Assembly (NCBI GenBank): GCA_001972305.1
Contig: BDDD01000170.1
Span: 326,044-390,043 of the forward strand
From: Cephalotus follicularis
Taxonomy: Eukaryota; Streptophyta; Magnoliopsida; Oxalidales; Cephalotaceae
DNA length: 64,000 nt
Direction of reading: 5' to 3'
Position numbers and translations under genes: made by a program. The notes under the pieces are model-generated. The model did no database searches. It was not told where the DNA came from and saw nothing but the letters and a program-made list of their open reading frames with translations. This document shows, piece by piece, positions 2,104 through 62,829 of the stretch. Numbering within the stretch: the stretch's first letter is position 1; each line of letters starts with the position of its first letter.

Positions 2104-3498
2104 TGATGGAAACGGACAAAACCGAATCCAATGCCATAAATGGACAAGGGTGTAAAGGGTGTAAAACAAAACAAAACATACAATCATGGCAGCGGAATAA
2201 CACACTATATAAACAAAACTAGTCCATAATGACACGTCCACAGACCACATGGATCACCACAACATAGACAGAATTGAATTGGTGTCACCATTACAAACAA
2301 TGGTGACACACAAGCATGGCAAAAGGAAGAAGGACCAAGAATAATACCAGTGGGTGAAGGCTCCTTCTTTCTTTGCTGCTACAAGCTTGAGTAGATTCCT
2401 CTTTGATGTTCTCCAAGTCTCAGGAACAACAAGCAATCTGACCAGCAATGATAAAGTGCATGAACTCTCTCTCTCTCACTTAGCTTAGAAAAGGTGTATT
2501 GATTTTGACCAATGAAGTCAATAATCAATCCACCCTAGATAAGCTCTTGCTTGGTGTATATAAGATGAAGTGAACACACACTGCAGAGAAGAAAATCCGA
2601 GCTCTCTTGCCCAACAAAAACCCAACTTTTTCCGCGCTTCCTTTTCTGCAGAAAATGCCTATATCTAGCCCTCCTTTTTCTCTCCCAATTTCCCATGCAC
2701 CTAGGATCATGGTCCTCACTCCCTTGGAGTCCAATGCCAGGATCCCCACGTTTCTAAAACGTGTAATATAAAGAGAAACCGGCTGAAGATGTGAGAGAAA
2801 ATGTACCCACGAAGTGAGCTCGTGCACAGGTTGCACGTTCTGCTCAAAGACGTCGACGCCTTTTCAAAAGACATCGACGTCCATGTAATGTGGCACTAAA
2901 AAAACATCGATGCTTTCTAAAATACATCGACGCCTTTCAAAATGTTAAGCATCGACGTCTTTCTAAAAGACATCAACGCTTTATCTGGCCAGTGAAGCAT
3001 TAAGAGTCTAACCCTTATAGTGATCTCATGTACCCTTCGAATATTGGTTAAGTAAGATCAGACATATGTGTTTCCACAAAATGCGAAATCCACATAACCG
3101 ATATTTGACACCAAGACTTAATATGTCCAACATATTAAAGATCTAATCATTATAAGGCAGGGACCCTTTAAAATCTTTGTTAAAATGAGAGGTGTTCATA
3201 AGTTACCGAAATATCCCTTGGGTCCGGTTTAGTCATTCTAAATGATCCCAGACCATTTAAATGCTTTTGAAATAATATCTAATATTATCCAGATGGAAAA
3301 ATTAATCTAATTAAATTTCTCATAATTTATTTTACACCTCATTAACCCTAGATTTTCTAAGTCGTCGATTCACGTGTACTATAATCCCTTGTCATGCTTG
3401 GCCCCGATTGAGGACTAGCGTAAGGATATGTGTCAACCCTAGATAGTACCTCAATGGCTAAAATATCTGATCATTACTAGGACCTTTGGTAAACTCTC
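2104..3498 (-). repeat. Copia 3' LTR (left copy)
   Basis: Matches the right LTR from the TGATSGAAACGG terminus through the AAACTCTC motif near 3498. It contains a GACRTCGACGYC motif cluster (about 2848-2982). No gene lies in it; short minus-strand frames are also present in the right copy and look incidental. Confidence 0.9.
2848..2982. repeat. GTCGAC-centred motif cluster, left copia LTR
   Basis: Six variants (GACGTCGACGCC, GACATCGACGTC, ACATCGATGC, ACATCGACGCC, GCATCGACGTC, ACATCAACGC) are separated by A/T-rich spacers such as TTTCTAAAA. Confidence 0.9.
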
Positions 3499-4085
3499 CG
3501 AAAATCTAATTTCCAGTCTACCTCAACCTTGGCCAAGGATTTCATAAGTCCAAAGTATAACCAGACCATAATAGATTTCAGCTCACTATCTTTTCCATAT
3601 ATCAAGAACATATCCTGAGTCCTCCTAAGGTACTTCAGGATTCCCTTGACCACTTCCCAGTGCTTCTCACCGGGATCAGACTGAAAATGACTTGCCATAC
3701 CCAGGGCAAGTGCGACATCAGGCCTAGTACATAACATGGCATACATGATCGACCCTACTGCTGAAGTATAAGGTATCCGACTCATGTGTGCTCTCTCTTC
3801 AGATGTCTGAGGAGACATCTTTCGAGAAAGATGAATTCCTTCACCTATTGGCAATAGGCCTCTCTTGGAATTCTCCAAGCTAAACCTCTTCAGCACCTTG
3901 CTGATGTACTGGCTTTGGGAAAGCCCAAGCAACCTATTGGATCTATCCCTGAAGATCCTAATACCCAGTATATAGGTGGTTTCTCCCAAATCTTTCATGG
4001 AAAAATTTTCAGTTAGCCGTATCTTTGCAGACTGCAACATCCCTACATCATTCCCAATGAGCAGGATGTCATCTACATATAGCAC
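3499..4085 (-). pseudogene. Copia reverse transcriptase, C-terminal part (fossil)
   Basis: A minus-strand frame begins with the YVDD catalytic box (LYVDDILLIGND), followed by the copia segment with YILGIRI, LSQSQYI and the typical IPYTSAVGSIMYAM and RPDVALALG motifs that link RT to RNase H. In the family this region completes RT and leads into RNase H, used for reverse transcription of element RNA in virus-like particles. Part of a broken copy; no function is expected. Confidence 0.9.
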
Positions 4086-4106
4086 TAAGAAAGTGATACT
4101 GGGCCC

Positions 4107-4937
4107 CTATTGCTTTCGATAAACACATGGCTCATCTACATTTTTAAAGAATTCAAAAGCTTTGACTGGTTCATCAAAACGTAGATTCCAGCTACGAGAT
4201 GCTTGCTTTAGTCCATAGATGGACCGTTCGAGCTTGCACACCATGTGCGGGTGCTCAGAAGATGTAAACCCCTCGGGTTGGGACACATAAATATCCTCTT
4301 CAAGACGCCCATTTAAAAATGCCATCTTGACATCCATTTTCCATATCTCATAATCATAATGAGCGGCAATAGCAAGCAAAATCCTAATGGATTTAAGAAT
4401 GGCGACGGGTGAGAAAGTCTCAGTATAGTCGACTCCATGTCGTTGCCTATACCCTTTCGCCACTAATCGAACTTTATAAGTCTCGATTTTTCCATCTGCA
4501 TTCATCTTCTTCTTGAAGATCCATTTGCAGCCAATAGGTACTATGCCTTCGGGTGCTTCAACCAAATTCCACACTTGGTTGGAGTACATGGAATCCATCT
4601 CGGATTTCATGGCTCCTAGCCATGCTTCAGATTCAGTGCTTTGCACTGCCTCTAAGTAGCTGGCAGGCTCGTCATCTTCAATGACATTTATCTCATCAGT
4701 ACCATCAATGAGGAAACCATACCTCTCAGGTGCTAATGGGATTCTGCCTAATCTCCTCAAAGGAGCTCTGCCAAACTGAGAACTATTCTCAGCCTGAGAT
4801 CCAATCTCAGCTGTGTATGTTGAAGGTCTAACCTCCAACTCCTCCATCTCCTGTGTGGTTTCTACCTGTGGCAACTCCTTGAGTTCCACCTTACTCCCAC
4901 TGTTTCCTTCAATAAGGCATTCCTTCTCTAGGAACAC
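4107..4937 (-). pseudogene. Copia reverse transcriptase, N-terminal part (fossil)
   Basis: A minus-strand frame carries the typical copia RT stretch: a KSEMDSMYSNQVWNLV start, CKWIFKKK, the catalytic-aspartate block WKMDVKMAFLNG, then YVSQPEGF and SIYGLKQASRSWNLRF. The upstream half is a loosely conserved linker between integrase and RT. It lies between the integrase and YVDD regions, as expected for Ty1/copia order. Part of a broken copy. Confidence 0.95.
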
Positions 4938-4988
4938 AGCATTTCACGAAACAAATATATTTTGTTCGCTAGAGTGATAGAAGTAGTA

Positions 4989-5717
4989 TCATTTAGTCTC
5001 TTTAGGATACCCCACAAACCTGCAACGGTCCGACCGCGCTTCTAGCTTATCTGCGTCAAGCCTCTTGACATAAGCAGGACAGCCCCAAACCTTCGAATGG
5101 TTCAGGCTGGGTTTCCTCCCTGACCATACCTGGTATGGAGTAGAAGGCATAGATTTTAAAGGAATCTGATTCAAGATATAAGCAGCTGTATCAAGGGCAT
5201 AACCCCAGAGATAGGTAGGAAGGTCAGTAAAAGACATCATCGATCGAACCATGTCTAACAAAGTCCGATTCCTCCTTTGGGATACATCATTATGCTGTGG
5301 TGTTCCAGGAGGAGTCCACTGAGATAGAATTCCGTTATCTCTAAGATAACCGAGGAATTCAGTTGACAGATATTCTCCACCTCGGTCCGACCGAAGTATT
5401 TTAATGGATTTACCTGTTTGTTTTTCTACCTCAAGTCTGAACTCCTTAAATTTCTCAAAGGATTCTGACTTGTGTTTCATCAGATACACATAACCATACT
5501 TAGATAAATCGTCGGTAAAAGTTATGAAGTAGATATAACCACCTCGCGCACCGACTGACATAGGACCACATACGTCAGTATGGACTAAGCCCAGTAAGTC
5601 CATAGCCCTTTCTCCTTGACCAGAGAAGGGTGATTTAGTCATCTTTCCCAATAAACAGGATTCACAAGTTGGATAGGACTCTAAGTCCTGGATATCAAGG
5701 AGATCATCCTGAACCAA
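4989..5717 (-). pseudogene. Copia integrase core (fossil)
   Basis: A minus-strand frame shows the GAG-pre-integrase tail (CESCLLGKMTKSPF), then the rve integrase core with HTDVCGPM, FTDDLSKYGYVY and the LRSDRGGEYLS block that carries the second catalytic aspartate, followed by GTPQHN and RRNRTLLDMVRSMM. This enzyme inserts element DNA into the host genome. It lies upstream of RT on the minus strand, which identifies Ty1/copia rather than Ty3/gypsy. Part of a broken copy. Confidence 0.95.
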
Positions 5718-5765
5718 CTGTGATAGTCTAGCCTCACTTAGATGACCAAGTCTACAATGCCAGGT

Positions 5766-6230
5766 TTAGGTTTTATTTAACTCAGCTTCTCTTTGTCTTT
5801 TCTTATTACTTTGCTCTATGGATAGGACTTTGGATTGTGCAGTATTTAAGACAAATAATCCATTGTCGATAAAACCATTACCGACACAAACATTTTCAGA
5901 ATAAACAAAACATTGAATGTCTTGGAATCTGAGCTCCATGCCCAAATTACATAAGTATGAAACACTTATAATATTCCCTACAACGTTTGAAATGAAAGAA
6001 CATAGATCAAGTGTCAATACGTAACCATTACATAAAGTAATATCATAAATCCCTATAGCCTCAGCGATAATCCTAGATCCATCCCCAAGCCGTAAGTCCA
6101 AGTCTCCAGCTCTAAGCTTTCTAACTTTTCTTAGTCCTTGCAACGAATTGTAAAGGTTAGTTCCACATCCAGTATCCAATACCCATGAAGAACTACTATT
6201 CAAAGCTAGATTTAGTTCAATCATGAACAT
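5766..6230 (-). pseudogene. Copia aspartic protease region (fossil)
   Basis: A minus-strand frame contains WVLDTGCGTNL, the copia retropepsin active-site context (DTG). It is followed by LRLGDG and the long spacer leading to the GAG-pre-integrase domain. The protease cleaves the element polyprotein. A CCHC zinc-knuckle-like stretch (CFQCGKTGH) is readable just upstream on the minus strand near 6290-6335 and marks the end of gag. Part of a broken copy. Confidence 0.85.
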
Positions 6231-6336
6231 ACCTGATGTACTCGCACCATGCGGGTTATCAGCAGAGACAATAGCAACAACAACACGGCAATCCTTTTTC
6301 TAGTGTCCGGTCTTACCGCACTGAAAACAAGCACCC

Positions 6337-7514: not shown

Positions 7515-8305
7515 CAACCCAGGAACACTACTCAACAAAAATTATGGAAGGCCACGGGGAACCACTCCATGGGTTCCTACGTTAAGACTTATTATTGCAG
7601 TGAGGGAATTTGCGGTCTCATGTTTCAATTACCGAGCCATTAATTAATTCATTGGTTTTATTAGACAATTCCAATTAATTACGGCTTAGCATGCAAGACG
7701 AGTTTCTTATGCACCTTGGACATATTTCTAAAATATGTCAATGGATCTGGCAAGGACAATAGTAGTAATGACTTGAGCCCAAAGTCACTGCTAGGTCTTC
7801 CTAGGTGTAAAGATTTAAATCTATTTATTACATCAATAACCATGCATACATGGCCTTCGAAAGTCTTGTACTTCATTTCTCCTTTCCTCCATCTCTTCTT
7901 GCAAGGTCTTCTTTTACATAAAAGTACAGTACATATTGAAAAGGAATTTACATTTAAAATTACAAGGAGAAATTACAAAGGTAAGGAAAAATAAATGGTG
8001 CACGCAGGCACCTTATTATAGACCTTTGAAATAATAGATAAATAAACATCCATTCACACATAGAAAACCATAACCTAGGTCAAAGTCCTTTTCGGGCCAT
8101 CCATCGTGCATAAGATCTATATTATATCCAATATAATAAAACCACATAACAAATGCCATAAATAATAACCAATTACTCAATTTAATTCAAGGATTGTTAA
8201 TTGATCAAACTCCCACTAAATCAAGCAATGATTTTTGATTTTCTAAGTGCCATAATATATAAAATCCAATTTTATTAAAAACAGTTTTTCTTTTATTTTT
8301 TATAA

Positions 8306-8550
8306 AAGACGTCGACGCTTATCAAAAGTATCGACGTGTTTTCTGGAAATACTTGAACAAGGCGTCGATGCATAACAGGAGCATCAATGCCTTTCTCAAG
8401 AATAGTTGAAAAAGGCGTCGACGTTCAACAAGAACATCGACGCGTTTCACAAGAAAATGAACAAGACATCGACGTCTATCAAGAACATCGACGTCTTTAC
8501 TGGGAATATGGATAAGACATCGATGTCTACCAAGAACGTCGACGTCAATA
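8306..8550. repeat. GTCGAC-centred motif cluster in the copia leader
   Basis: About ten variants of GACRTCGACGYC (for example GACGTCGACGC, CATCGACGTC, GCGTCGACG) spaced 20-40 bp apart. Several have GTCGAC changed to ATCGAT or ATCAAT, the changes expected from loss of methylated CpG. Confidence 0.9.
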
Positions 8551-8828: not shown

Positions 8829-8844
8829 GGACGCTCTGATACCA
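8829..8844 (-). other. Copia primer binding site (initiator Met-tRNA type)
   Basis: The minus strand reads TGGTATCAGAGCGTCC one base inside the right LTR. TGGTATCAGAGC is complementary to the 3' end of plant initiator Met-tRNA. It fixes the element's orientation as minus. Confidence 0.95.
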
Positions 8845-8845: not shown

Positions 8846-10452
8846 TGATCGAAACGGAGAAAACCGAATCCAATGCCATAAATGGATAAGGGTGTAAAAC
8901 AAAACAAAACGTACAATCATGGCAGCGGAATAACACCCTATATAAACAAAACTAGTCCATAATGACACGTCCACAGACCACATGGATCACCACAACATCA
9001 ACAGAATTGAATTAGTGTCACCATTACAAACAATGGTGACACACAAGCATGGCAAAAGGAAGAAGGACCAAGAATAATACCAGTGGCTGAAGGCTCCTTC
9101 TTTCTTTGCCGCTACAAGCTTTAGTAGATTCCTCTTTGATGTTCTCCAAGTCTCAGGAACAACAAGCAATCCAACCAGCAATGATAAAGTGCATGAACTC
9201 TCTCTCTCTCACTTACCTTATAAAAGGTGTATTACCAATGAAGTCAATAATCAATCCACCCTAGATAAGCTCTTGCTTGGTATATATAAGATGAAGTGAA
9301 CACACACTGTAGAGAAGAAAATTCGAGCTCTCTTGCCCAGCAAAAACCCAACTTTTTCCACACTTCCTTTTCTGCAGAAAATGCCTATATCTAGCCCACC
9401 CTTTTCTCTCCCAATCTACCATGCACCTAGGATCATGGTCCTCACTCCCTTGGAGTCTGAAGCCATGATCCCCACGTTTCTAAAACATGTAATATCAAGA
9501 GAAACCGGTTGAAGATGTGAGAGAAAATGTGCCCACGAAGTGAGCTCGTGCACAAGTTGCACGTTCTGCTCAAAGACGTCGACGCCTTTTCAAAAGACAT
9601 CGACGTCCATGTAACGTGGCACTAAAAAAACATCGATGCTTTCTAAAAGACATCGACGCCTTTCAAAATGTTAAGCATCAACGTCTTTCTAAAAGACGTC
9701 GACGCTTTGTATGGCCAGTGAAGCATTAAGAGTCTAACTCTTATAGTGATCTCATGTACCCTTCGAATAATGGCTAAGTAAGATCAGACATATAGGTTTC
9801 CACAAAATGCAAAATCCACATAACCGATATTTGACACCAAGACTTAATATGTCAAACATATTAAAGATCTAATCATTATAAGGAAGGGACCCTTTAAAAT
9901 CTTTGTTAAAATGAGAGGTGTTCATAAGTTATCGAAATACCCCTTGGGTCCGGTTTAGCCATTCTAAATGATCCAAACCATTTAAATGCTTTCAAAATAA
10001 TATCTAGTATTATCCATATGGAAAAATTAATCTAATTAATTTTCCCATAATTTAGTTCACACCTCATTAACCCTAGATTTTCTAAGTTGTCGATTCACGT
10101 GTACTATAATCCCTTGTCATGCTTGGCCCCAATTGAGGACTAGGGTAAGGATATGTGTCAACCCTAGATAGTACCTCAATGGCTAAAATATCTGATCATT
10201 ACTAGGACCTTTGGTAAACTCTCGAAGGTAACCAGTCTCACAGCCTCCATGCCAGGCATCCAACCTTATGTCAGGGCATCACTAGTATAAGTAGGTAATA
10301 AATAAACTACTTCAATTATGTGATAAAATACAAGTGATATAGCCATCACAAATTTTAGCACGTATCATGTATAAGGAATAAGATTGTTTCATACAAGGTA
10401 AGATATAATGTGACAACCCATCTAATGGCTTGTCGGGTCACTATATCTAACA
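8846..10452 (-). repeat. Copia 5' LTR (right copy, 1607 bp)
   Basis: Bounded by TGATCGAAACGG and CTATATCTAACA on the plus strand, followed by the CTAAG target duplication. It carries a GACRTCGACGYC cluster (about 9575-9706) at the same place as the left LTR. No gene is seen. Confidence 0.95.
9575..9706. repeat. GTCGAC-centred motif cluster, right copia LTR
   Basis: The same six positions as in the left LTR, with a few substitutions between the copies (for example ACATCAACGC on the left, GACGTCGACGC on the right). Confidence 0.9.
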
Positions 10453-16400: not shown

Positions 16401-17054
16401 CATCCTAAGTGGCAAACATCAGGCTCTTGGCTTCCGGGAGGCCGAATGTCCTTCTTATGTGCCTTGGTAAAGAGTTTGACTGAAGAAATTCTTATATTGC
16501 CTTCCTAAGTGCCAAAAATGATGTCTTGGCTTCCAGAAGGCTAAATGACCTTCTTATGTGCCAGTGGTGATGTATTTGACAAATGAAGGATTAAATTGAC
16601 TTTCTAGACACCAAATATGAGTCCTTTGCTCTTTAGCAGGCCAAATAACTTATATGTGTCACAGTTTAAGTGTTTGTCTTAACACGAGAACATATTACCA
16701 TCCTAAGCGTAAAACATAAGGACTTTTGCTCCTAGAAGGCAAATGACCTTCATATGTGCCAAGGGTGAAGTTTTTGAGTTAGGGAATGCTCAAATTGCCA
16801 TCCTAAGTGCCAAACATGAGGCTCTTGGCTTATGGGAGGCCAAATGCCCTTCTTATGGGTGTCGGTAACGAGTTTAACTTAAGAAATTCTTAAATTGCCT
16901 TCCTAAGTGCCAAAAATGAGGTCATGGCTTTCAGAAGGCTAAATGACCTTCTTATGTGCCGAGGGTGAAGTGTTCGATTGAATGAAGGCTTAAATTTACT
17001 TTCTAGACACCAAAGATGACTCATTTACTCTCTAGCAGGCCAGATAACTTATAT
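10453..17054. repeat. Satellite array, segment 2
   Basis: Same A-B-C-D satellite as the first segment, resuming in monomer B immediately after the copia element. It includes a tandem duplication of about 1.5 kb (roughly 11165-12580 and 12665-14090), a fused C/D monomer near 12571-12600 and a B-to-C junction near 16035. It ends inside monomer A where the chromovirus remnant starts. Long open frames on the minus strand here are repeat shadows, not genes. Confidence 0.95.
11165..14090. repeat. Tandem duplication of a 1.5-kb satellite block
   Basis: The same run of variant monomers occurs twice about 1505 bp apart. Examples are GCAATACATAAGAACC at 11256 and 12761, the CATGCCTTCA(A/G)GAGG variant at about 11472 and 12976, GGCCAAGAG in monomer B at about 11688 and 13190, and ACACCAAAGGTGTGTCC at about 12345 and 13860. 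The copies diverge after about 12580 and 14090. Related single copies lie near 25437 and 45679. Confidence 0.8.
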
Positions 17055-17097
17055 CCACCATCTCCTTGTTTCCAGCAAATCCCACCATCAAATGCCA
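17055..17097 (+). repeat. Short LTR piece of the chromovirus
   Basis: Nearly identical to 18102-18144 inside the full LTR (shared start CCACCATCTCCTT). It directly abuts the pol 3' region. Confidence 0.85.
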
Positions 17098-17685
17098 CGT
17101 TGTGCTCCGACATGTTGGGATGAGGTTGGAGAGCGAGTTATCGAGGGACCCAAGCTAGTGAAGATCACTACGGAGAAAGTGGCAATAGCAAAGGAGAGAT
17201 TGAAAGCGGCTCAATCTCGACAGAAGAGTTATGCGGACAGACATCGGAGGGACTTGGAGTTCAAGGTTGGCGAACATGTGTTCTTGAAAGTTTCACCTTG
17301 GAAAGGAGTCCGACGTTTTGGGCTGAATGGAAAGTTGAGTCCGCGGTTTATCGGACCTTTTGAAGTTCTGGAGAAGATCGGCGCGGTCGCTTATCTGTTA
17401 GCTTTGCCTCCGTAGTTAGCACATGTCCATAATGTGTTCCACGTATCTTTGCTGAGAGGCTATCAGTATCATCCTCTACATGTGGTTCACTATCCGTTGG
17501 ACAGCATTCGTGAGGATTTATCTTGTGACGAGGAGGCTGAGGCTATTTTGGATCGACAGGAACGGGTGACACGTAGCAAGACCGTTTCTTTTGTGAAAGT
17601 GCTGTGGAAGAATCATCCCGAACGTGAGGCTACTTGGGAGCTAGAAGAGCATATTCGGGAGCGTTATCCGCACTTGTTTGTTTGA
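17098..17685 (+). pseudogene. Chromovirus pol 3' end: integrase C-terminus and chromodomain (fossil)
   Basis: The first frame (to about 17415) reads CWDEVGERVIEGPKLV, then the conserved RQKSYADRHRRDLEF, GEHVFLKVSP and the GPF module FIGPFEVLEKIGAVAYLLAL of Ty3/gypsy integrase. The second (17434-17685) starts MFHVSLLRGY and ends with a chromodomain-like segment, VLWKNHPEREATWELEEHIR followed by ERYPHLF. In chromoviruses this domain is thought to direct integration to heterochromatin by binding modified histones, and that fits the satellite location. A polypurine tract and the LTR follow directly. Part of a broken copy. Confidence 0.9.
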
Positions 17686-17729
17686 GGTATGTTTATGTTT
17701 GTGTTTGTGATTTCGGGACGAAATCTTCT

Positions 17730-17745: not shown

Positions 17746-19909
17746 TGTAATACCCTGTTAGTTCGTAAATGTATTTTTACGGGTTCGTAAATATATTTTA
17801 CGAATTTTTATATGTGTTTTCGGACTTTTAATTTTGTTTAATTTTAAAAGTCCGGTTGCCCTACGATTTGGGTTTATGTGAATTGTGCGGAATGATACCG
17901 GTCCGAATTTGGGTATGTTATGCTATGTTGGGTTTTATAAATTCTTATTTTAATCCAAAAACTTATTTTATTAAAAACAAATTATTATTCTTTTATTTTA
18001 ATATTCCTAAATTCCTTTTTCATTATTAATTCTTTTATTAATAATTCTTTTTCTTTTCTTTTTCCTATTTTATCATTTTCTACCATTTCTTCCTACTTCG
18101 TTCCACCATCTCCTTCTTTCCAGCAAATCCCACCATCAAATGCCATGGTAGAATCTCTCCTTTTCCATTTCATAATCCAGAAAAGTTCCCTTCTTCCTCT
18201 TTTGTCAAATCTTGTCTCCCCCTTTCTTCATTATTGAGTGCCATTGCCATTTTTATATGATGCCACCATCCGTATTGCAAACCACTCCGAATTTGCCTTG
18301 TTATTGTGCAATAATCTGCTGTGTAAATCATTCTTCAAAGTTCAAGAGGTAATCTCAATCCTTTAGTTGTTTCCTTGGATTAAATTCTCTTAGTTTGCTA
18401 TGTATGTCTAAAAATACCATGGTTTTGTATTTTTTCTTTCCTTGTTTCTGTTCACAGCAGATTGTGTGTCTGTGTTTGTGTTCTTCCTACTGTTTTCTGG
18501 GTTCCTTAACATCACTAAAGGTCAGTTAATTTATCTCCTTTAATTATATTTTTGTTTCAATGGCTTACTTTGAGTTTTTGTGCTCTTGGTATCTTGGAGT
18601 CTTTGATTCTTGCCCAAACATGTTGCTATTGTGTTAGTAATGTTATATGCACGTTTAATGCACCTATATATGTCAAAAACTGAGTTTATAACATCTGTAA
18701 CCAATTAGAAACAAAATCTGGACATGTTCATGCAATGTCTTCTTACTTCCTCTTGCAAGTTAAATCATGGAAAGTTCGTTTCCTTGTCAAATTTGTGTTT
18801 GTAAATAACCTACCAGTCATATATGATCATATGTTTATGTCCATATGTCTCTAGTTTAATGTAGAAATCATTTGAACCATTTTCAGAAGCAAATCGTCGG
18901 ATTTCCAACTGTTCTGTTGCCGAGAACAGTCGACTGGAATGGTTGTGTGGTCGACTGGAGGGAAGAACACAGTCGACTACCTGCATTTTTTATTGAGTAG
19001 TCAACTGTTCATATGATCCAGTCGACTGCCAAGCCTCTCCAGTCGACTGGACCCCTGTTCTAGTCGACTGTTATGCCTTGGAAAGTGTTGTTTTCAACTG
19101 TTTTGATTCATTTGATCCCCGAATCGATCCGAATCTTTTCCAAACACTGTTATGAGTCTGTTTAATGCTTCTGATGTGGTTTAAACTCTTATACATATGA
19201 TTTTGAATGTCTTTATAGGTTGCTGAGTTTCAAGTGGATTCCGTTTAAATTGTCTATTCGTAAGTGCTTTGCAAGCGCATAAGGTACGGATTTTCTGTTC
19301 CTTGGCTATCTGACATTCAAACTGAAACTGTTTTGATAAACATCTTCGTTTATGAAATCAACGATGTTTCATGATTTTGATACGTTTTGAATTTAAAGTT
19401 GGTTTGACATTTTAATTGATTCCAACTTTATCTATAAGATACGTTATGGTATGATATGTTAGGATACGATATGTTATGATATGATATGTTATATACTGTT
19501 GTGAGCAGTTTTTGAATATGTTGTGTGAAAACATATTTCCCTTATCCGTACTGAGGTTTGCTTAGCCGCGTTTTTGTTTCCATGCGGCAGGTTTTCAGGA
19601 GCAGCGGGGGAAAGTGTGATTGAGTGATGACCACCCTATATGAGTCGGATGCTTAGGACAGTGATCCTTATGTTATGTTTAGTGGTCCGAACCATGGATT
19701 TTTTTATGTTTTATATTTGAAATTGGAACTGATTTATGTTTTGAGTTTTCCGCAACTACTTAATATGTTAAAATGTTATGTTTTATTGTTTTGATAAGAC
19801 TGCCACGTTTTTGGCTGTTATTGGTTAATAAAGAAAAATTATAAGTTTGTTAAGTTATGTTATGTATGATATGACCCTGTGACGACTCCCGCCGTCCGGG
19901 GGTGTTACA
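17746..19909 (+). repeat. Chromovirus LTR, full length (2164 bp)
   Basis: Bounded by TGTAATACCC and GGGGGTGTTACA. It holds a CAGTCGACTG cluster (18925-19072), a short GATATGTTA-type AT-rich repeat (19438-19495) and, near the 3' end, GGTTTGCTTAGCCGCG and TTCCGCAACT, which also occur in other LTRs of this window. No gene is seen. Confidence 0.92.
18925..19072. repeat. CAGTCGACTG motif cluster in the chromovirus LTR
   Basis: About seven variants of CAGTCGACTG (for example ACAGTCGACTGG, GGTCGACTGG, AGTAGTCAACTG, CCAGTCGACTGC) spaced about 20-35 bp apart. The motif is a near-perfect palindrome centred on GTCGAC. Confidence 0.9.
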
Positions 19910-20079: not shown

Positions 20080-20955
20080 ATGGCACGTACAAGGAACGCT
20101 GCTCGGAGGACTGCACCCGTTGAGGCTCAGGAAGTCAGAAATGAGCCTACCATGGAGGAGCTCGTACGTCAGGCAGTCGCTTAGGAGATACGACGCGTGT
20201 TGAATGAACAGAATCAGAATCAGGACCTTAGGGAGCCAGTTGCTACTAACGATGCTCCAGCTGATGTCCAGTTGGGAAGAGATGCTGGGAACGGGACTGT
20301 TACGCCCAATTATGTTTGGCTAGAGCGGTTCCAGAAGCAGAGACCACTGTCTTTCAGCTCAGCCGTGACTCCGGTGGAAGCTGAGCACTGGATTGCTAAT
20401 ATGGACAAGATCTTTGATGTGCTTTGTTGCAGTGATGAACAGAAGATTAAGTTAGCTGTATACAAGCTTGAGGGTGATGCTCAGAAATGGTGGAAAGCTG
20501 TGGTTTTGGCTAAGGGTGGCAACTATGTGGAGACTTTGACCTGGTCTGAATTTTGCGAGGTCTTTTATCAGCAGTATTTTCCCACCGCTGATAAGGAGGC
20601 TTACGCCAGAGAGATTGTCAATACCAGATAGAAGGATGGAGAGTCAGTGACGAAGTTCTTGACCCGATTCACTAGACTTGCTGGTTTTGTGGCAGGGACA
20701 GCATTGGAGCAGGCAGAAAAGTTCAAGTGGAAGTTGCACTACCAGTTTCGGGGTAAATTGATCAACACCAGGTTTGCTGATGTATCTGAAGTGGCTAATG
20801 CGGCTAAGAACATTGAGATGGAAAGGTTAGATTTCCAGGCTGCTCGACAGGAGTTTGACAGAAAGAGAAACAGAGGTGATTCTCAGGGGCAAGGTTCTGG
20901 ACAGAATAACAATAGGAATGGTAAGCGTGGGAAGAGAAATGATTACCGGGGATAG
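20080..20955 (+). pseudogene. Chromovirus gag (fossil)
   Basis: Gag begins with MARTRNAARR at 20080, downstream of the PBS. The body reads YVWLERFQKQRPLSFSSAVT, then the retrotransposon gag segment with AEHWIANMDKIFDVL and KLEGDAQKWWK, typical of Tekay/Del-type gag, followed by a basic region (FDRKRNRGDSQGQGSGQNNN) that leads to the zinc knuckle. Gag forms the particle that packages element RNA. Overlapping frames on the other strand are shadows. Part of a broken copy. Confidence 0.88.
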
Positions 20956-21003
20956 CAACAGCCCGGTAATGACAAGAGGCAGACTCAGGGAGCTGCGGAT
21001 GTC

Positions 21004-21681
21004 CAGATTTCCAAATGTCAAGTGTGTGGTAGACAGCATCCGGTGGGAGTATGCTACAAGGCTATCGGGGCCTATTTTGTGTGTGGACAGAAAGGGCACT
21101 TCGTGAAGGATTGTCCTGACCCTCATGCAAAGGAAAGGAAGGGGAGTTATGCAGATCATGGACAGCGCAACGTGGGAGGTCGTGTCTTTGCTATCACGAC
21201 TCAGCAGGCAGCTAACGCACCAGGTACTGTTTCGGGCTTTGTTTATGTTGGTAACCGTAGGGCTTATGTTTTATATGATACTGGATCGACCCACTCGGTT
21301 GTAGCGGGGTCTTTTGTTCGGCATCTTGGGATGTTTTCTCAGTTGCTTGATCCAACTTTGGTTCTTTCGACCCCTACGAGTTCTTCTGTTGTGATATCTG
21401 AGTGCTTTTATGCTTGTCCTCTTGTTTTCTATGATCGGGTTCGTGATGCGGACCTTTTGCCTATCGATATGTATGACTTCGATATGATTTTGGGAATAAA
21501 CTGGTTGGATGTGGTCCGAGGTGTGATCGGACATATGTATGTGAGAATTGACTTGTGTAGTGCCGTACACTTCAATTCTAGTGGGCATGTGGAATTAGCG
21601 CCTCCCTTGCCAAAATTTATGACATGTGATATGAATATGGCTCAGTATGTTTTAAACGATTATGATTTCGATGTTTCGTAA
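21004..21681 (+). pseudogene. Chromovirus zinc knuckle and aspartic protease (fossil)
   Basis: Starts with a CQVCGRQHPVGVC knuckle and a second VCGQKGHFVKDCP knuckle-like motif. A retropepsin follows with the active-site context LYDTGSTHSVVAGSFV, the flap region and the conserved LLPIDMYDFDMILGINWLD strand that characterises Ty3/gypsy proteases. In intact relatives RT, RNase H and integrase would follow; here an LTR part follows within 150 bp. Part of a broken copy. Confidence 0.9.
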
Positions 21682-29596: not shown

Positions 29597-31017
29597 TGTA
29601 ACGCCCCTAATTTTCATAAATAATTATTATGAAATTGGTGCATGTACGATCGTAAATAAAATGGATAAAGGCCCGCAGTAATAAAAAGGCATTACGCATG
29701 AAGCTGTAATTATGTTAGCCAAAACGACTAATAAAGCCTATTTTTAATGCGCGATAGTAAAGCCCAATGTTCGAAATATTATTCCGATTATTTTTGTGGT
29801 TGTTCGGATAATTTATGTCGCAATTCGCTAAAATATCGGGACCCAGACCTTAGTATTTTACCAGTAAATACTATAGGAAAGCCAAAAGAATAAAAGGAGA
29901 AAGGGAAAGACACAGGCGCATCACGCGCCCGTGCAAAAGAGAAGACAGTGGGCGCTTTGTGCGCCCGCACCGGGGAGAGAAAGCGAGAGAGAGTGGGAGA
30001 GAGCTCGGAGCAGAGGGAGAGAGAGAGGGTGCCGGAGACAGCCACCGGACCAGGAGACGACGACGGGCAACCCAGACCCTCAACCCGTCGGTAAGCTCTT
30101 CCCCCTTCTCCTATTTCCTCCTCTTTTTCTTCTCCTTTATCGTCACTATGCCCGCCATCTGCCGGCATTTCCCGGTGCCATTAGCGTCGCGGATGGAGGG
30201 GGTTTTCATCAAGAAGGCCCGCTCTATCCATTTTGACCACCGGCGAGGAGTGGTTCGGCCAGAATCGACCGAGATCTGTCAACTGAGTTGACTCACTACT
30301 GCCTGAGACCGCGCTTTTGGCGCCAAGTCTCGGTGAGTCACGGGCAGGGATGTGTATAACTGGTGAATGTGCGGCGTTTTTGGGTGGCGATCGGACCTGT
30401 TGAGGTCCGGCGAGTTGACTCAGTGAGTCACAACTTGCTGCCAGCTGGGGCGCGGTGTTCGGCGCTAATTCACGGCGAGTTTTGAGCGGTTCTATGTAGA
30501 CCGTTCGATGTGGAACCCATTTATGGGTGTTTCATAAGTTGGATGAGTTGGCAAGAATCTGGCCGGCGTTTCGGTGACGGCAATGTTTTGCGTGTCGAGC
30601 ATAACGGAAATGTGTTGTATGTGCAGTGTGTGAGTGGCAATTGGATTTAGCAGTGAAGAATTGAACAATTGGCGAGAACCGGGTTCGGTTAAACAGTTAC
30701 TGGGAAAGGGTCGGCAATTGAACCTGCGGCTCGACTGTGCTGCTGCTACTGCGATTCCTAACATGGAATCAGAGGTAGGGGAAGCCATGATTGTATTTTG
30801 TGTTCAGTAATTGGTGTTTGTTCAGGGATGTTTATGCATAGTTTGCATGGCCTGTTGAACTGTTTTTGGTCACTGAGATGATTCTACGTTGTACTGGATG
30901 TGTAATATGATATTGCATGTCGATTTTCTGGGCTTTATACATGTTGGATTGCATGTTATTATGGTGAAATTGTTACTGTTTGGTCACGTCTTGAGGAAGA
31001 AGACGACTACTGCTTGA

Positions 31018-31168
31018 AACCGTCGACGCCTTCCGTAAGTGTTGACGCTTTGTGCTGTCAACTGTGTTTTATATACTGAATACATTTTAAATGTCTACGC
31101 TTATGGGAGGATCCATCGATGCCTAGACACTGGAAGCGCTGACGCCTAAGGAATAAACGTCGACGCTT
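31018..31168. repeat. GTCGAC-type motif cluster, LARD 5' LTR
   Basis: Variants include CGTCGACGCC, GTGTTGACGC, CCATCGATGCC, GCGCTGACGCC and ACGTCGACGC, several decayed at CpG positions. The matching cluster in the other LTR is at about 36840-36995. Confidence 0.85.
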
Positions 31169-32045: not shown

Positions 32046-32070
32046 TTAGCCAAGTGAGGATAAAGGCTAA
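32046..32070 (+). promoter_or_regulatory. TTAGCC...GGCTAA hairpin, LARD 5' LTR (copy at 37881-37905 in the 3' LTR)
   Basis: The stem TTAGCC/GGCTAA is kept while the loop changes between copies (AAGTGAGGATAAA here, GAGTGAGGACAAA in the 3' LTR). Confidence 0.7.
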
Positions 32071-32950: not shown

Positions 32951-33329
32951 GGTCGATGCCTAAGGAGTGGTGTTGACGCCAATAGCCCTATTTTAGTGAA
33001 ACTGCCCAGTTTTTCGTGGAGTTCGATTCTGATTAAGGTCAGGCTAATGTTTAAGCCTCCAAAATAGTGCCTAAGGCTGCCAAACAGTCTAGTCTTTCCA
33101 GGAAGTCTGACCTCAAGAAGGCGGACCTCTTGAAATCCTACGGGTTACATCGAATGAAGTGGCAGTGAGGACTTTGAAGTCCGAAATGGTCAAGTGACCA
33201 ACCGAATAAGTCGTAGTGGCTAAGTGGTCGATCGAATGGGTCGAAAGGCATAAGTGTTGTCAGAAAAGTGTCCGTCCGAATAGTGGTTAATCAAGATAGA
33301 ATATGAATGGTTATTACAAATGGCTAGTG

Positions 33330-35432: not shown

Positions 35433-38312
35433 TGTAACGCCCCTAAATTTCATAAATAATTATTATGAAATAAAACGGATAGAGGCCCGGAGTAATAAAA
35501 AGGTATTACGCATGAAGCCATAATTATGTTAGCCAAAACGGCTAATAAAGCCTATTTTTAATGCGCGATCGTAAAGCCCAATGTTTGAAATATTATTTCG
35601 ATTATTTTGGTGGTTGTTCGGATAATATATGTCGCAATTCACAAAAAAATCGGGACCCATACCTTAGTATTTTACCAGTAAATACTAAAGGGAAGCCAAA
35701 AGAATAAAGGGAGAAAGGGAAAGACACGGGCGCATCACGCACCCATGCAAAAGAGAAGACAGCGGGAGCTTTGTGCGCCCGCACCAGGGAGAGAAAGCGA
35801 GAGAGAGTGGTAGAGAGCTCGGAGCAGAGGGAGAGAGAGCGCGCTGGAGCCAGCCACCGGACCAGGAGACGACGACGGGCAACCCATGCCCTCAACCCGC
35901 CGGTAAGCTCTTCCCTCTTCTCCTCTTTTCTCTTCTTTTTCTTCTCCTCTGTCGTCACTGTGCATGCCATCTGCCGTCGTTTCCCGGCATCGTTAGCGTC
36001 CCGGATGGAGGGGGGTTTCATCTAGAAGGCCCGCTCTATCCATTTTGACCACCACTGAGGGGTGGTTCGGCCAGAATAGGCCAAGATGTGTCAACTGAGT
36101 CGACTTGGAGAGTTGACTCACGGCTACCTGAGACCGTGCTTTTGGCATCGAGTCTCAGCGAGTCACGGACAGGGATGCGTATAACAGGTTAATGTGGGGC
36201 GTTTTTGGGTGGTGATCGAACCTGTTGAGGTCCGACGAGTTGACTTAGTAAGTCAAAACTCGATGTCGGCCGTGGCGCGGTGTTTGACGCTTATTCATGG
36301 CGAGTTTTGAGCGGTTCTGTATAGACCGTTCGATGTCGAACCCCTTTATGGGTGTTTCATAAGCTGGACGAGTTGGCTGGAATCCGGCCGTCGTTTCGGT
36401 GACGGCAATGTTTTGTGTGTCGAGCATAACAGAAATGTGTTGTATGTGCAGCGTGTGAGTGGCAATTGGATTTAGCAGTGAAGAATTGATCAATTGGCGA
36501 GAACTGCGTTCAGTTCAATGGTTACTGGGAAAGGTTCGGCAATTGAACCTGCGGCTCGACTGTGCTGCTCTACTGCGATTCCTAACTTGGAATCAGAGAT
36601 AGGGGAAGCCATGATTGTATTTTGTGTTCAATAATTGGTGTTTGTTCAGTGATATTTATGCATAGTTTGCATGGCCTGTTGTACTGTTTTTGGTCACTGA
36701 AATGATGCTACGTTGTACTGATGTGTAATATCATATTGCATGTCGATTTTCTGGGCTTTATACATGTTGGATTGCATGTCATTATGGTGAAATTGTTACA
36801 GGTTGGTCACGTCGTGAGGAAGAAGAAGACTGCTACTTGAAGCCGTCGATGCCTTTGGTAAGCGTCGACGCTTTGTGCTGTGAATTGCATTTTATATACT
36901 GAATACGTTTTGAACATCGACGCTTATGGGAGGAGACATCGACACCTAGACACTGGAAGCGCGAACCCCTAAAGAATAAATGTTGACGCTTTAGAGTCCT
37001 GCTTGGACAGTTTTTACGATTTTGACACCCGACGACCCCGATTTCGCTTAGGATGCATTAGAGCATTTGTATGCATTGCATATGTACTATTTATTGCCTG
37101 GTTAATGACTGTTATAAATTGATTATGATTTCTAAGTATTGTAATATTAGAAATGCACATATGAGTTGGAAACTACTATGTTTGAGTACGAAAATGTAAA
37201 ATGAGTACTGTTATATTTTCAAACATACTGGGAAAGAAATTTCCACTACTGAACAGTTTAAAGTATTTTCTATCTACTGAAAATGCGTCTTTCAAATGTT
37301 TATGACCTTTGAACACATTTTGAAATGAACTGCCTATTGTTGATCTAAATGATCACGACTTTACTGTTTACTGCACTGTTTACTGTATTGATTCACTGTG
37401 TTGCTCTGTAAATTTACTGTGTTTGTCCTTGAGCCACTAGTTGCATGGTGGAGACTGCCAGTGCTGGCTAGTGTCAGGGTTGACCTAGGAGCCAGGAGTT
37501 GGCTGAGTAACTCACTGTACTATACTGTTGCCTCGCTTGGTTGCCTGGAGAAGGGACCGAAGTGGGAGTGTAGCGTGGGGCCAGGAGATGGCGACGTTAC
37601 ACATATTGCCTGCCTGTTGTGGTCCTTTTGCGGACTTACTGTACTGCCTGGTTATCCTTTTCGGACATTACTGTGCCTGTTGATGTAGCCATGGCCTGAC
37701 TATTACTATACTGTTATTGCATACATATATTTTACATATATATGTCGCTACCGTTATTTTACTGTACTGCTAATATATATATTTTTCATATATATATGAA
37801 CTGGTATTTCCTGCACTGCATCATTTACGCATACATTACATGACATGCATTTAATGTTGATCCCAAATTGCTCTTATGACTTAGCCGAGTGAGGACAAAG
37901 GCTAACCCCCCTACTTTACAGATTCATGCAGTGGACCGGTGTTAGACTAGCATGGATGAAGAGCAAGCCTTATTTTAGTTGTTGTGGGCTTTATGTTCTT
38001 CCGGGTTGTAATAAACTATTTTTTAAAGAATACTTATGTACTGTACTGATGGTTATCTGTTGTACTTTAGTTTTGGGTTAAAGTACTGTGATCACGCTCC
38101 GTTTTGTGGGCTTTTAACAATGACATATTTGTATTGAGTAGCGTGCAGTATGGGATGCACGTTACGAGTTTTTCAGCTTATGAGTCTTAATGCTTCCGCA
38201 ATTGATATCATGTTTGAAAAGTTTAAATTTTATGGTTTTTGCATAAGCTGAATCTTTATGTTAATTGTCTTTACCGCTTCTACGTGTGTTTACACGAAAC
38301 CAGGGCATGACA
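35433..38312 (+). repeat. LARD-like element 3' LTR (2880 bp)
   Basis: Collinear with the 5' LTR over its whole length, including the GA-rich island (about 35790-36010), the GTCGAC-type cluster, the hairpin (37881-37905) and the TTCCGCAATTGATAT box. It ends GGGCATGACA and is followed by the target duplication. Confidence 0.93.
36840..36995. repeat. GTCGAC-type motif cluster, LARD 3' LTR
   Basis: Variants CGTCGATGCC, GCGTCGACGC, ACATCGACGC, GACATCGACACC and TGTTGACGC lie at the same positions as in the 5' LTR. The two copies have lost different CpG sites. Confidence 0.85.
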
Positions 38313-41019: not shown

Positions 41020-41510
41020 AAAGACATCGACGTCTTTATAAAGATGTGGACGCCTATGGGAACCAGGGCACACGTGATTGAATGGGCATGCACGTCGACA
41101 ATGAAAGAAGGCATCGAGACCTTCTTACACAAAGGGAAAAGACATCGACGTCTAAGGAAAGACGTCGACGCCTTTGTAAAGAATGGCTGTCACGTTATGC
41201 ACTGACAGAGTAACATGCAAGGGGGGGCATGAATGAAATGCATGAATTGCATGCTTGTTGGGAGTTGAACTAAATGATTGATTGATGATATGAACATCTG
41301 TTGGTGTAAACTATATATGCATGTTGATTTCTGGGTGAATTCCATGCTTGATTGTATGTGCATAAGGGTTGAGTACCCTGGTTTGTGGATAGAATGAAAG
41401 AGACAGTGTTCTGGGCTCTTATGACGTCGACGCTTTTGTAGCAAACATCGACGTCTTTATGTGTTGAGGCAATAGACGTCGACGCCCCAGTTAAGCGTCG
41501 ATGTCTATTT
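41020..41510. repeat. GTCGAC-type motif clusters in the solo LTR
   Basis: Two groups: about 41025-41180 (GACATCGACGTC, GATGTGGACGCC, GCATCGAGACC, GACATCGACGTC, GACGTCGACGCC) and about 41424-41505 (GACGTCGACGC, ACATCGACGTC, GACGTCGACGCC, GCGTCGATGTC). These are among the best-preserved copies in the window. Confidence 0.92.
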
Positions 41511-54873: not shown

Positions 54874-57800
54874 TGTAACACCCCCGAATGGCGGGAGTCT
54901 TTACGGTTCATAATCCAAAACTAAACATAATAAAATCTATATAACATAGCTCGATTTTAATCCTTTTTATAAAAAAATTAACTTATCTTCTATTTAAAAT
55001 GTGTGATGGTCTAAACATTACATTCATCTTCTAAAACATAGTTTGAAACTAAAATCGTAGTCTGAAAGCTTAAACATAATCAAAAGTCATAAACTGGAAC
55101 GCATAACATTGTTCAGAAGGGGTCCTAACATGACCATAAAATAACTAAACATAAACGGATCCATCTCCTAAGTGATATTCAGACATAAGTGACATCTCTC
55201 TCATCTCACGTTTCCTGGATGCTGTCCCCGAATACTTGCCGCATTGAAAACAAAACACGACTGAGCAAACCTCAGTACAGATATAGAATCATAAAACATA
55301 AAATGATACTTTAAAGGATAGAAAATACCTAAACCTTTAAATATCATATACCTCATACATAAAATAATTTAACATTATTTCCGAAAGCGAAAGTAAGTAG
55401 TCATACTATCAAGTCAAAACAAATATCCAATTTTCAAAGCGTTATTCAAATTTCAAAACATAATCCAAGTTCAAAACCAAATCTAAATTTCAAAACAGTA
55501 TCCGAAATGAAATCCAATTTCTTTAACATTATCCGAGTTAAAAATTCCAAAACAACAACAGTGATTTATCCGATTCCATAATCTCATCCCAAAGATCCAA
55601 AGTGCATACACATATGCGTAATTGCGAGGGGTTCATGACACCCACATGCCAAACGGAAAGACGTGTACGGCACTACACCATCAATCCCCAGAATTCATAT
55701 CCTTAACATATTGCATATTTCATCACATATGCAATAAACTAGAATCGATTCATACACCTCTATCATACATAACAGATCCATAAATCCACCTCATGGAATG
55801 TATTCATAACATAGAGAGACGCATAGTCTAATCACACCGCTACGGAAGTGTCATGTCCCCGTGCCAGGCCTACGACATGCCTATGGTACCTCCATATGTC
55901 GGAAATATCTCTGTATATCCTTATTTCAAAACATTGTTCATTCCAAAATAGTTTAAAAACATAGACACATTCTCTAAACATTTTCTGAACATATCATAAT
56001 CTTTAACATACTTCCTAATGTGAACGTCATATCGTTATCAAAATCAGTATACTTTCATAGTAAGAAATCAACTCATTTGTTTTCAAAATAAAGAGACGAT
56101 TGCTTAACATTTCGTAACGTTTTAGAACCGAATTATAAAGCCAGAAAATATTTAGTTTCACAAGAATATCATACCGACTTTATTTCTGAACATATCAAAA
56201 TACGAAGCATAACGAAGTTCTTAAAATTGAAGAAAACATATTCATAAAGCTGAATTTATTTCGACTAATACAAATGTCCAAGAAGAGAAATCCATACATT
56301 ATTCATAAAGTAAAACTATTTTTTTACTCTAATAAAACCAATATGAGGGTATCAAGGAATGTAAAATCCGTACAAAGCATATTTGAATCCATTTCAGTAA
56401 AACCAAAGGAATAAGCCAAGAACGAAGAATATGTACCTTAAGTGATCACAGAAATAACTTTACGAATTGATCAACAATTTCTAATTGCCCCTCGTAGCAC
56501 AAAAATCTAAAAGATACAATATCATTCATATAAGGATTTGAAAACTGCTTCCGAATATGAAAACAGAAATTCAACGGTGCTTAAGACAGACTCCAAATCA
56601 TTAGAAGAACAAACGAATAACAAAACTTGAAACCATAAATTTACTGGACAGAACAAGCCGACTGTAACAAAGTCCAGTCGACTGTTCAAAGGGTGGCAGT
56701 CGACTGTATAGCATAGGCAGCCGACTACATAAACTGGGCTACAACCAGTCAACTATGACAGGGTTCCAGTCGACTATGCAAGGCAAAACATCTGGCTGCT
56801 TCTTTAGACAACCAACTACACAAATCGAAACAGCCGACTGTTCTGCTTGACAGAACAGCAAAAATCTAACAAACCTATGCCAATTTTCTGTCAAAACTTG
56901 TTTATCACATTACCAGAGGATCCTAATCATTTACATAGGACTTATGTGACACAACAGTTACATTAGAGCATAAAGAAACAAGAAATTTATGCAATGGTGA
57001 TCATATTTTTAAAGAGACTTAAGAACTTCTAACCTCTACACATATGATCCGATTCTATCAAAGCATTATCATAAGGTTATCATACCAGATTAACCGGTTT
57101 ATATTAGGTATCCTAAGGCTGCCATCAGAAATTATAAACCAACAGGACATAAGTCAACAAGATAACCATATTCATATTCATAGCTATGTGATCAATTTTC
57201 TGTCAAACCTTAACTGTTAGATTGAAAACCTGTTTACTACCACTACAAGACAACTCGGGACTTGTTAACAGTCTCAGAAACTATAACAAAGCATATAATG
57301 GCAAGTGTCAAATCCAAAACGCACTAGCAGCCTATATACGAGAGGATTGGATAACATTAAGACCAAAACTAATTGCTAAACCATAACAACAAAGGAAAAC
57401 AAACATGATATGATGATCAAAGAAGAACACAATAGATTCCAAATCATGCAGGTTCGACTACCAGGCGCAAGAAAAATAGTGGTGGCTTACACAATGGCAA
57501 TTGGCATACATAAACATAAAGGAGGAAGCAATTTCAGCTGAGATGAGGTAAGAGAGAATCACAAACTGATATGGTAAGGAAATTGGGCAGCAATTTCGGT
57601 AGAGATAGGGAGAAAGGAAGGAAAAGTATCGGTTTTGGAAGAAAGAAGAAGAAACGTATGGGAGAGGGAAAGGAGAAATAGGAAACAAATAGGTTTTAAA
57701 TAGCAAAAAGTATTCATTTTCAAAATAAAACAATTTTACCATATTACTAATGTAAAACTTATTTAAAATTAAATTTAAAAAATAATACAATTAATTTTAC

Positions 57801-61646: not shown

Positions 61647-61829
61647 TGTGACGACCGAATTCCCTTTGGTACTATTCATCAATACATCGTACCGTATTGG
61701 ACCGTACTGAAGTGTATTGTATTGAGGTATTCTTATACCTATTGATATTGTATTGGTTATATGCATGTATAGTCGGGATTTTGGGACGAGTTTCGGAGAG
61801 TTGATCGAATTGACTATTTAAGTCAATTC

Positions 61830-61902
61830 TCTCTCTTTTCTCTCATTATTCACATTTCCTCTCTCTCTCTATCGTTCTCTCTCTCTCTCTCTCTCCCTCT
61901 AA
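61830..61902. repeat. CT-rich microsatellite near the LTR start
   Basis: Runs of CTCTCTCT broken by a few other bases, about 190 bp into the LTR. Such tracts are common in plant promoters and leaders. Confidence 0.9.
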
Positions 61903-62420
61903 TTGGAGCCTCCATATTCCTCCCTTGCAGCTGGAATTGCATCTCCATCGACAAGGACAGTGATTACAAGTGGTGTCTTACCGATTGAACAAGAAAGTAG
62001 CGGTTTATTGGGCGTTTTCAACCAATCGATCGATCGTTAGCTCAAATTTTGAAGCTTCAGTGATAGGTAGGGCTTCCTTACTGAATTGCCCACTGTTTTA
62101 TTGATTGATTGATTGAACTGCATGATTGAATTGAATGATTGAGTGATTGGATTGGGGTTTTTAGGGTTTATAGCAAACCCTTGACCTAATTGCTAAATTG
62201 AATGATTGAAATTGTATTTGGAAGGTTGTAACTAGTCTTACTAACCTCAAATGATTGATTGTAAACTTTGGTTTTCAAAGAATGTCTTTTAATTGGATTT
62301 TTGGCTTGAGATTGGCCCATTTTCTACCAGAAAAGTCGACCCTGCCAGGAAAGACGTCGACCCTTAGCCCAAAGGCTTCAATGTCTTTCTCATACGAGTG
62401 CAACATCCTTGATTCTGTAG

Positions 62421-62460
62421 CAAAGACATCGACGTCTTTCTAAAGACGTCGACATCTTTG
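62421..62460. repeat. Near-perfect 40-bp dyad of two GTCGAC motifs
   Basis: CAAAGACATCGACGTCTTTC faces TAAAGACGTCGACATCTTTG. The arms pair apart from a few positions. Confidence 0.85.
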
Positions 62461-62594
62461 CCTTGAGATGTCTCTCCCCTGGAAAGACGTAGATGCCGAA
62501 CATCGATGCGCACTCCCAGGTTATTTTAATTGAAAAACCTCGACGCCTTTCTCAAAGGACGTCGACGTCTTTGGCCAATGCTCTACATGAACAA

Positions 62595-62636
62595 GGAAAG
62601 ACATCGACGTCTTTATAAAGACATCGATGTCTTTCC
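62595..62636. repeat. Near-perfect 42-bp inverted repeat
   Basis: GGAAAGACATCGACGTCTTT then ATAAAGACATCGATGTCTTT then CC. It equals its own reverse complement except for one mismatched pair. Confidence 0.9.
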
Positions 62637-62829
62637 TCCATTTTAAAGAGGAGTCGACGTCTTTCATTAAGGACATCGACGCCTAATGTACTGAAAGGAG
62701 TTTTGACTGTTTTAAAGCTAGTTTTCTACTTCTTTTCACATAAGCCACTTGTCCGAAACCTCACTTGAGGTGTTCAAGTGTTTGAAAACAGTTTTAATGA
62801 TTGCACTGACCGATTGATTGCTTGGTTCA

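Follow-up and report, generated by a model that had tools for sequence, protein, structure and literature searches.

We observe that short palindromes centred on TCGA are clustered in the long terminal repeats (LTRs) of different retrotransposons, and in one 5′ leader, within 64,000 nucleotides of the Cephalotus follicularis genome (contig BDDD01000170.1, positions 326,044 to 390,043), the whole of which is here called the window and within which the spread of the motif over lineages is judged. It is certain that one 18-bp palindrome, motif A (AAAGRCRTCGAYGYCTTT), is carried by a copia element and by one lineage of large retrotransposon derivatives (LARDs); it is found additionally in one unclassified element, and a variant, motif B, in chromovirus-type LTRs. 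The hexamer GTCGAC occurs 29 times in the window against a shuffle mean of 3.07 (maximum 9, 100 shuffles), an approximately ninefold enrichment (29 vs 3.1 expected), with 29 copies vs 3.13 in the 34.1 kb outside a satellite (300 shuffles) and none vs 0.58 expected in the 29.9 kb of the satellite itself (100 shuffles). Clusters of this hexamer thus exist as an earlier, sequence-only reading of the window had claimed, with 27/29 copies inside its listed clusters and those at 4428 and 36099 standing alone. The top-ranked k-mers outside the satellite are CGTCGA among 6-mers, GACGTCGA among 8-mers and AAGACGTCGA among 10-mers.

Scanning with a symmetric 18-bp matrix at a cut-off of at least 11 bits returned 50 motif A sites, all within the listed clusters and none in the satellite (shuffle mean 0.62, maximum 3, 100 shuffles). 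They are distributed as follows, the sites being palindromic and given without strand:

2846..2983, motif A array, 6 sites, copia 3′ LTR
8305..8549, motif A array, 10 sites, copia leader, between primer-binding site (PBS) and coding region
9572..9709, motif A array, 6 sites, copia 5′ LTR
31016..31170, motif A sites, 2 above cut-off, LARD 5′ LTR
32946..32963, single motif A site, LARD interior
36839..36993, motif A array, 5 sites, LARD 3′ LTR
41020..41508, motif A, two groups totalling 9 sites, LTR-like stretch related to the LARD and with its end near 43058
62350..62686, motif A array, 11 sites, unclassified element at the end of the window

The figure of 5-14 motifs per cluster given previously is therefore too high for the LARD 5′ LTR and the LARD interior. 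As a guard against circularity, matrices were trained on other families and then run on the held-out region, which recovered 22/22 copia sites, 8/8 in the LARD, 9/9 in the 41020 region and 11/11 in the terminal element, although the 41020 region is a relative of the LARD, so that these two hold-outs are only partly independent. Column-permuted control matrices gave a mean of 0.07-0.30 matches, with single runs of up to 17. The hold-out matrices have no match in the satellite or in the long interspersed nuclear element (LINE), in agreement with the earlier statement that both lack the motif.

Within TCGA, the T and the A never vary (50/50 sites), and the full TCGA is present in 43/50, RYCGAC in 37/50 and ACGT in 27/50. 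The symmetrised consensus, which is symmetric by construction, reads AAAGACGTCGACGTCTTT for the copia LTR, the 41020 stretch and the terminal element, AAANACGTCGACGTNTTT for the copia leader and NNAAGCGTCGACGCTTNN for the LARD; the plus-strand consensus departs from symmetry at 1-2 positions in the copia LTR and 41020 arrays. Conservation ends sharply at the edges of the 18 bp: across 44 sites, one copia LTR having been dropped as redundant, the end positions hold 0.69 and 0.47 bits and the adjoining ones 0.09 and 0.11, with at most 0.39 bits farther outside, peaking where neighbouring sites start. Close sites are separated by c, tca, ta, cta, at, gg, g, gta, ctca, ggga, catt, ccc, ct or one 7-mer. 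Spacings of 19-22 bp, about two helical turns, account for 19/35 intervals vs 9.95 expected (P = 0.00015) and, without the tandem leader, for 14/26 vs 6.64 expected (P = 0.0001); under a null without abutting sites the expectations are 10.88 and 7.22 (P = 0.0002 and 0.00025). The redundant copia LTR, the LARD 5′ LTR and the LARD interior site were left out of this test. Half-site variants favour the plus strand (A..C 23 vs G..T 7 at positions 4/13, and 19 vs 5 at positions 6/11), and over the whole window this lean is independent of element orientation.

The arrays are rich in CpG (observed/expected 1.0-2.0) at a G+C content of only 0.41-0.46. This is most pronounced in the copia element, where the arrays reach 1.8-2.0 vs 0.16-0.41 nearby, with 1.96 in the 5′ LTR array vs 0.40-0.41 in the remaining LTR.

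When the sites are masked, BLAST matches between families fall to chance level (E of 0.02 and above) and the remaining similarity is within families only, while the spacers differ between families in sequence, length and order. Transfer of a whole LTR or a whole array between elements is unsupported on both of these grounds. The accompanying claim that the host elements share little other sequence stands for the masked comparisons between families, with the exception of the 41020 stretch, which is related to the LARD LTR.

Motif B is a second palindrome, a 10-bp site reading CAGTCGACTG. Allowing at most 2 mismatches, we find 22 matches, of which seven fall in each of two arrays and eight are scattered elsewhere, and the spacing is 20-22 bp in 9/12 intervals vs 1.1 or 4.1 expected, depending on the null. 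The arrays and the coding parts beside the first of them are:

17020..17685, plus strand, chromovirus integrase end with chromodomain
18927..19070, no strand, motif B, 7 sites spaced at 21-28 bp, upstream of a chromovirus-type LTR end at ~19909
20185..21681, plus strand, gag-protease part of the element that lies downstream of the motif B LTR
56655..56840, no strand, motif B, 7 sites of which 3 read GCCGAC, minus-strand relative with its LTR end near 54874

The LTR end at ~19909 sits between the chromodomain integrase end and the gag-protease, and the variant motif previously assigned to a chromovirus LTR does lie beside chromovirus coding parts there. Motifs A and B, found in different elements, agree in their hexamer core and in their period, which suggests a common logic, with the caveat that sharing a 6-bp palindromic core by chance has a probability of about 1 in 64, there being 64 such hexamers. 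The order of parts at 17020-22179 is a chromodomain pol end, one LTR, a PBS, gag-protease and a partial LTR end, which looks like a recombination or deletion product of tandem chromoviruses.

The copia element lies on the minus strand, an orientation fixed by its PBS, and has LTR repeats at 2111-3498 and 8853-10223 with 94% identity. Its other parts are:

3477..6299, minus strand, copia pol fragments (RVT_2, rve, gag_pre-integrs, Pol_BBD)
8833..8844, minus strand, copia PBS, iMet type

The leader array consists of five pairs at 19-bp spacing, set in tandem units of ~51-53 bp. A TATA-box match follows the array by 284 bp in the 5′ LTR only, and TTTATATAG was seen by eye ~630 bp after the array in both LTRs. 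The pol region almost abuts the 3′ LTR repeat (3477-3560), with no clear polypurine tract (PPT), and RNase H and the LTR start, in the region from pol to the 3′ LTR, seem to be deleted. A protein search with the copia integrase gave 4086 matches; among the best 120, the top one has 72% identity, with alignments to part of the query reaching 75%, and the named relatives are mostly from Malus, Sesamum and other plants, with two filed under Escherichia coli.

The LARD is bounded as follows:

29597..32478, plus strand, LARD 5′ LTR, ends TGTAACGCCCC...GGGGCGTGACA
35433..38312, plus strand, LARD 3′ LTR

These LTRs are ~90% identical, an AGGGG target-site duplication flanks the element on both sides, and TATAAATT lies 120 bp downstream of the arrays in both (31290 and 37113). 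The interior had been described as containing a gag region; no gag or other Pfam domain was found in the 3 of 4 interior open reading frames (ORFs) of at least 90 aa that were scanned, all on the minus strand. A 30/60-bp tandem repeat occupies interior positions 33366-33640, where the minus strand is open for 100 aa with no Pfam match. The stretch with the array at 41020, previously called a solo LTR, is LTR-like, with no 5′ end found, and does not count as a separate lineage, because patches of it are 69-78% identical to the LARD LTR. The terminal array had likewise been placed in an LTR, but neither LTR ends, nor a partner, nor a coding domain were found there (one of five ORFs scanned). The proposal that the hosts span copia and Ty3/gypsy is accordingly not strictly proven for motif A, because the LARD lacks coding sequence and resembles gypsy elements in nothing but its TGTAACGCCCC termini; motif B does have chromovirus coding parts beside it. 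The satellite, which is interrupted by retroelement DNA, makes up 29.9 of the 64 kb and is CpG-poor (observed/expected 0.26 in the largest block):

1-2110, 10380-17060, 22170-28075, 43400-54880 and 57940-61660, satellite, ~400-bp units of ~100-bp subunits

We consider that the clusters are probably cis-regulatory protein-binding arrays that act as enhancers in the LTRs and in one 5′ leader, a reading drawn from the sequence. The sharp 18-bp boundary, the symmetry and the two-turn spacing would fit cooperative binding of a dimer. The unit would be a two-fold symmetric site around TCGA, of 18 bp (A) or 10 bp (B), and repeats at about two helical turns would place neighbouring sites on the same face of the DNA, where a dimeric factor, from the host or less likely encoded by an element, could occupy several of them jointly. 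Once bound, it might raise transcription of the element or protect the LTR from silencing. Arrays would expand through local duplication and be kept by selection while the element is active, and after insertion they would decay like methylated DNA; unrelated elements would have the site in common because all respond to the same factor. The regulatory reading is supported by its published relatives discussed below (Sirevirus RM boxes, ONSEN heat-responsive elements and VANC-bound arrays), which are read as regulatory. A shared enhancer module had been proposed before and is the best-supported reading, but the attached idea of an ACGT-core box bound by bZIP factors is weakened by the 23/50 sites without ACGT, and a bZIP C-box was rejected as the conserved core on this count. 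As a tentative extension, which we would hold as possible and no firmer, one factor supplied by the host or by an element would recognise TCGA-centred two-turn palindromes, and unrelated LTR lineages (copia, the LARD lineage, the unclassified element and, with the variant site, chromoviruses) would have converged on its site.

The history of the LTR copies bears on the decay step. Between copies, flanks differ at 10/53 CpG vs 48/1210 non-CpG positions in copia and at 70/284 vs 167/2484 in the LARD; within sites, where the counts are small, the figures are 3/26 vs 2/82 in copia and 6/25 vs 9/65 in the LARD. Because CpG positions differ most, the R/Y variation at the outer CpGs fits a putative methylation decay of a ACGTCGACGT ancestor, while the T/C change seen in 29/50 sites at position 13 (zero-based numbering) is not CpG decay.

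Several observations weigh against binding arrays of this kind. Non-CpG divergence is about equal in sites and flanks (9/65 vs 167/2484 in the LARD, 2/82 vs 48/1210 in copia), so that there is no sign of constraint after insertion. CpG richness is uneven: the LARD arrays (1.38-1.42) show a small contrast with the LTR upstream (1.05) and downstream (0.53), and the motif B arrays (0.70 and 0.61) lie below their own LTRs (1.05 and 1.09). Neither ACGT nor RYCGAC is kept in all motif A sites, and the leader array lies downstream of the copia LTR and hence in transcribed RNA. Regular 10.5-bp phasing of the longer intervals is weak when these are taken alone (P = 0.078, 12 intervals) and was rejected; P values of 0.011-0.038 appear in looser sets holding tandem leader intervals or one 137-bp interval, and the strong overall phasing stems mainly from the 19-22 bp pairs.

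The position of the leader array raises the alternative that the palindromes act in RNA, as hairpins for packaging or dimerization, or as a source of small RNAs that marks the element for silencing, a role proposed for the clustered palindromes of maize Sireviruses. The transcribed leader array folds at -103 vs -63 kcal/mol in shuffles (z = -8.4), but good folding is expected of any palindrome array. Departures from symmetry in the copia LTR are mostly G-U pairs in the minus-strand element RNA (23 vs 4; 12 vs 10 in the leader), whereas in the plus-strand LARD and 41020 stretch the A-C type, a mismatch in their own RNA, exceeds the G-U type (20 vs 11), so the half-site lean tracks the strand of the window and not the transcript. 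In 4/5 groups, pairing is better between adjacent sites than between swapped ones, yet the gain is tiny (0.35-1.0 of 18 positions) and is reversed in the LARD (12.5 vs 14.0 with G-U, 9.0 vs 11.5 without), so that any hairpin partner specificity is slight at most. Maize palindrome clusters have been linked to small RNAs (PMC10760457). We regard an RNA function as an unlikely general explanation, with a role in the copia leader and LTR being possible. It is also improbable that the array spreads simply as sequence, by template switching or recombination during reverse transcription and without regulatory selection. The same 18-mer does recur in several elements, copia has it in both LTR and leader, and the leader array has been enlarged by ~51-53-bp tandem duplication, but no common flanks remain once the sites are masked, and spacers and spacing order are family-specific. 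Transfer of one seed site followed by local expansion is a further alternative.

Within the regulatory readings, the sites could be stress enhancers for DREB/CBF-type factors with an RYCGAC core instead of targets of a bZIP C-box factor. RYCGAC, which is CBFHV and which we take to mean DREB/CBF binding, is the more frequent of the two cores (37/50 vs 27/50 for ACGT), and GCCGAC is found in 3/7 sites of the second motif B array. An 18-bp symmetric site exceeds a monomer core, however, and 13/50 motif A sites lack RYCGAC, which leaves this assignment very unlikely. MCIRE is cited as a retrotransposon with CRT/DRE motifs (PMC5059998).

The arrays had been put forward as the leading candidate for an undescribed system, a claim that finds no support, since palindromic, CpG-rich repeated-motif (RM) arrays of plant LTRs were published in 2010 for Sireviruses. 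RM boxes form high-copy arrays both in the LTRs and ahead of ENV (Bousios et al. 2010, PMC2829016); they are called Sirevirus-specific, not being found in the classic Ty1/copia elements compared there, and distant Sireviruses (Osr10, Osr8, Vitis, Inga) carry nearly identical ones (PMC2829016). The arrays described here are similar in being short dyad-symmetric palindromes, CpG-rich, clustered in LTRs and in a second non-coding place, and conserved amid divergent flanks. They differ in that the core is TCGA and not CGG-CCG, that the second copia array is in the leader and not before ENV, and that one 18-mer is carried by a copia element and a LARD lineage. The CGG-CCG core is present in 12/13 described RMs, Tnd-1 being the exception, and the Vitis RM CGGTCGACCG contains GTCGAC while the Tnd-1 RM ACAATCGATTGT contains TCGA (PMC2829016). 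RMs are further defined by at least 8 copies per element, a CpG-island cluster and a TATA box on average 37 bp after the island (PMC2829016); copy numbers here are 6+10+6 in copia, 11 in the terminal element, 9 at 41020 and 2+1+5 in the LARD, several elements being incomplete. Sireviruses also have a 5′LTR/PBS junction reading CA/ATTGG/TATCAGAGC, or CA/AGTGG/ in six elements, a C-rich integrase signal ~21 bp from the LTR end and multiple PPTs before the 3′ LTR (PMC2829016). The copia junction is a narrow miss, CA/GTGG/TATCAGAGC having one base fewer than the AGTGG variant, and by eye no C-rich block is evident in the last 40 bp of the copia LTR. We provisionally do not file the element as a Sirevirus.

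Motif sharing across families has precedents in a maize palindrome and in VANC6 motifs. The maize copia palindrome CACCGGACNNNGTCCGGTG also ranks first among the motifs in structured regions of Helitrons (PMC10760457), and so is likewise one palindrome in unrelated transposons, linked there to structure and small RNAs; its sequence is different, and the sharing involves a DNA transposon. VANC6 motifs, from the VANC-bound arrays of VANDAL transposons, are present in the unrelated AT9TSD1 too (PMC5735166). VANC arrays resemble those in the window as dense short motifs in non-coding DNA that expand by tandem duplication, but they are one-oriented and belong to factor-encoding DNA transposons, whereas the sites here are palindromic, with half-site variants that lean to one strand (23 vs 7 and 19 vs 5). 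No VANC-like factor domain was found in 16 scanned ORFs, the chromodomain apart. In ONSEN/COPIA elements, heat-responsive elements were gained repeatedly in several copia families, by duplication in ONSEN (PMC5059998); these are also factor-site clusters in LTRs, but consist of HSFA2-bound nGAAn motifs a few bp apart with no shared long palindrome. SIRC cassettes of Arabidopsis comprise 2-8 repeats of 10-29 bp and are linked to miniature inverted-repeat transposable elements (PMC10342631). They are similar in that their short direct repeats, some of them palindromic, are separated by unrelated spacers and often lie within transposons, but they are defined by structure, where one sequence is shared here.

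Database searches returned no counterpart of the arrays. The motif A dyad pattern was absent from bacterial and archaeal genome contigs and had two matching stretches in viral contigs (G+C 0.66 and 0.55), neither with an array; viral contigs held no motif B dyad and no copia integrase relative. The single 18-mer matched 13 viral-contig stretches, and the 15 loci examined hold 1-6 scattered sites each (132 kb) with no tight cluster. Translations of the arrays gave no protein relatives (8 and 2 candidates, none scored), and Rfam gave no match at the gathering score. GTCGAC palindrome arrays across LTR families are unnamed in the literature titles and abstract openings found, subscription papers being mostly outside this scope.

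Palindromic arrays in one retrotransposon group are thus already known, and what is unusual is a motif common to different, some apparently unrelated, elements. What is new is that different LTR elements in one genome, and a leader as well, carry one 18-mer centred on TCGA with a defined dyad spacing; if the copia element is a Sirevirus after all, the novelty lies in the occurrence of its motif in the LARD lineage and in the unclassified element. If this interpretation is true, RM-type arrays extend beyond Sireviruses and their sites converge across lineages. If unrelated retrotransposons share one array, a single factor may co-regulate their bursts and, if it exists, could be isolated with an 18-bp bait. 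Convergence on one such factor would give these elements a common route of activation or of escape from silencing, by which whole groups of transposons would rise together.

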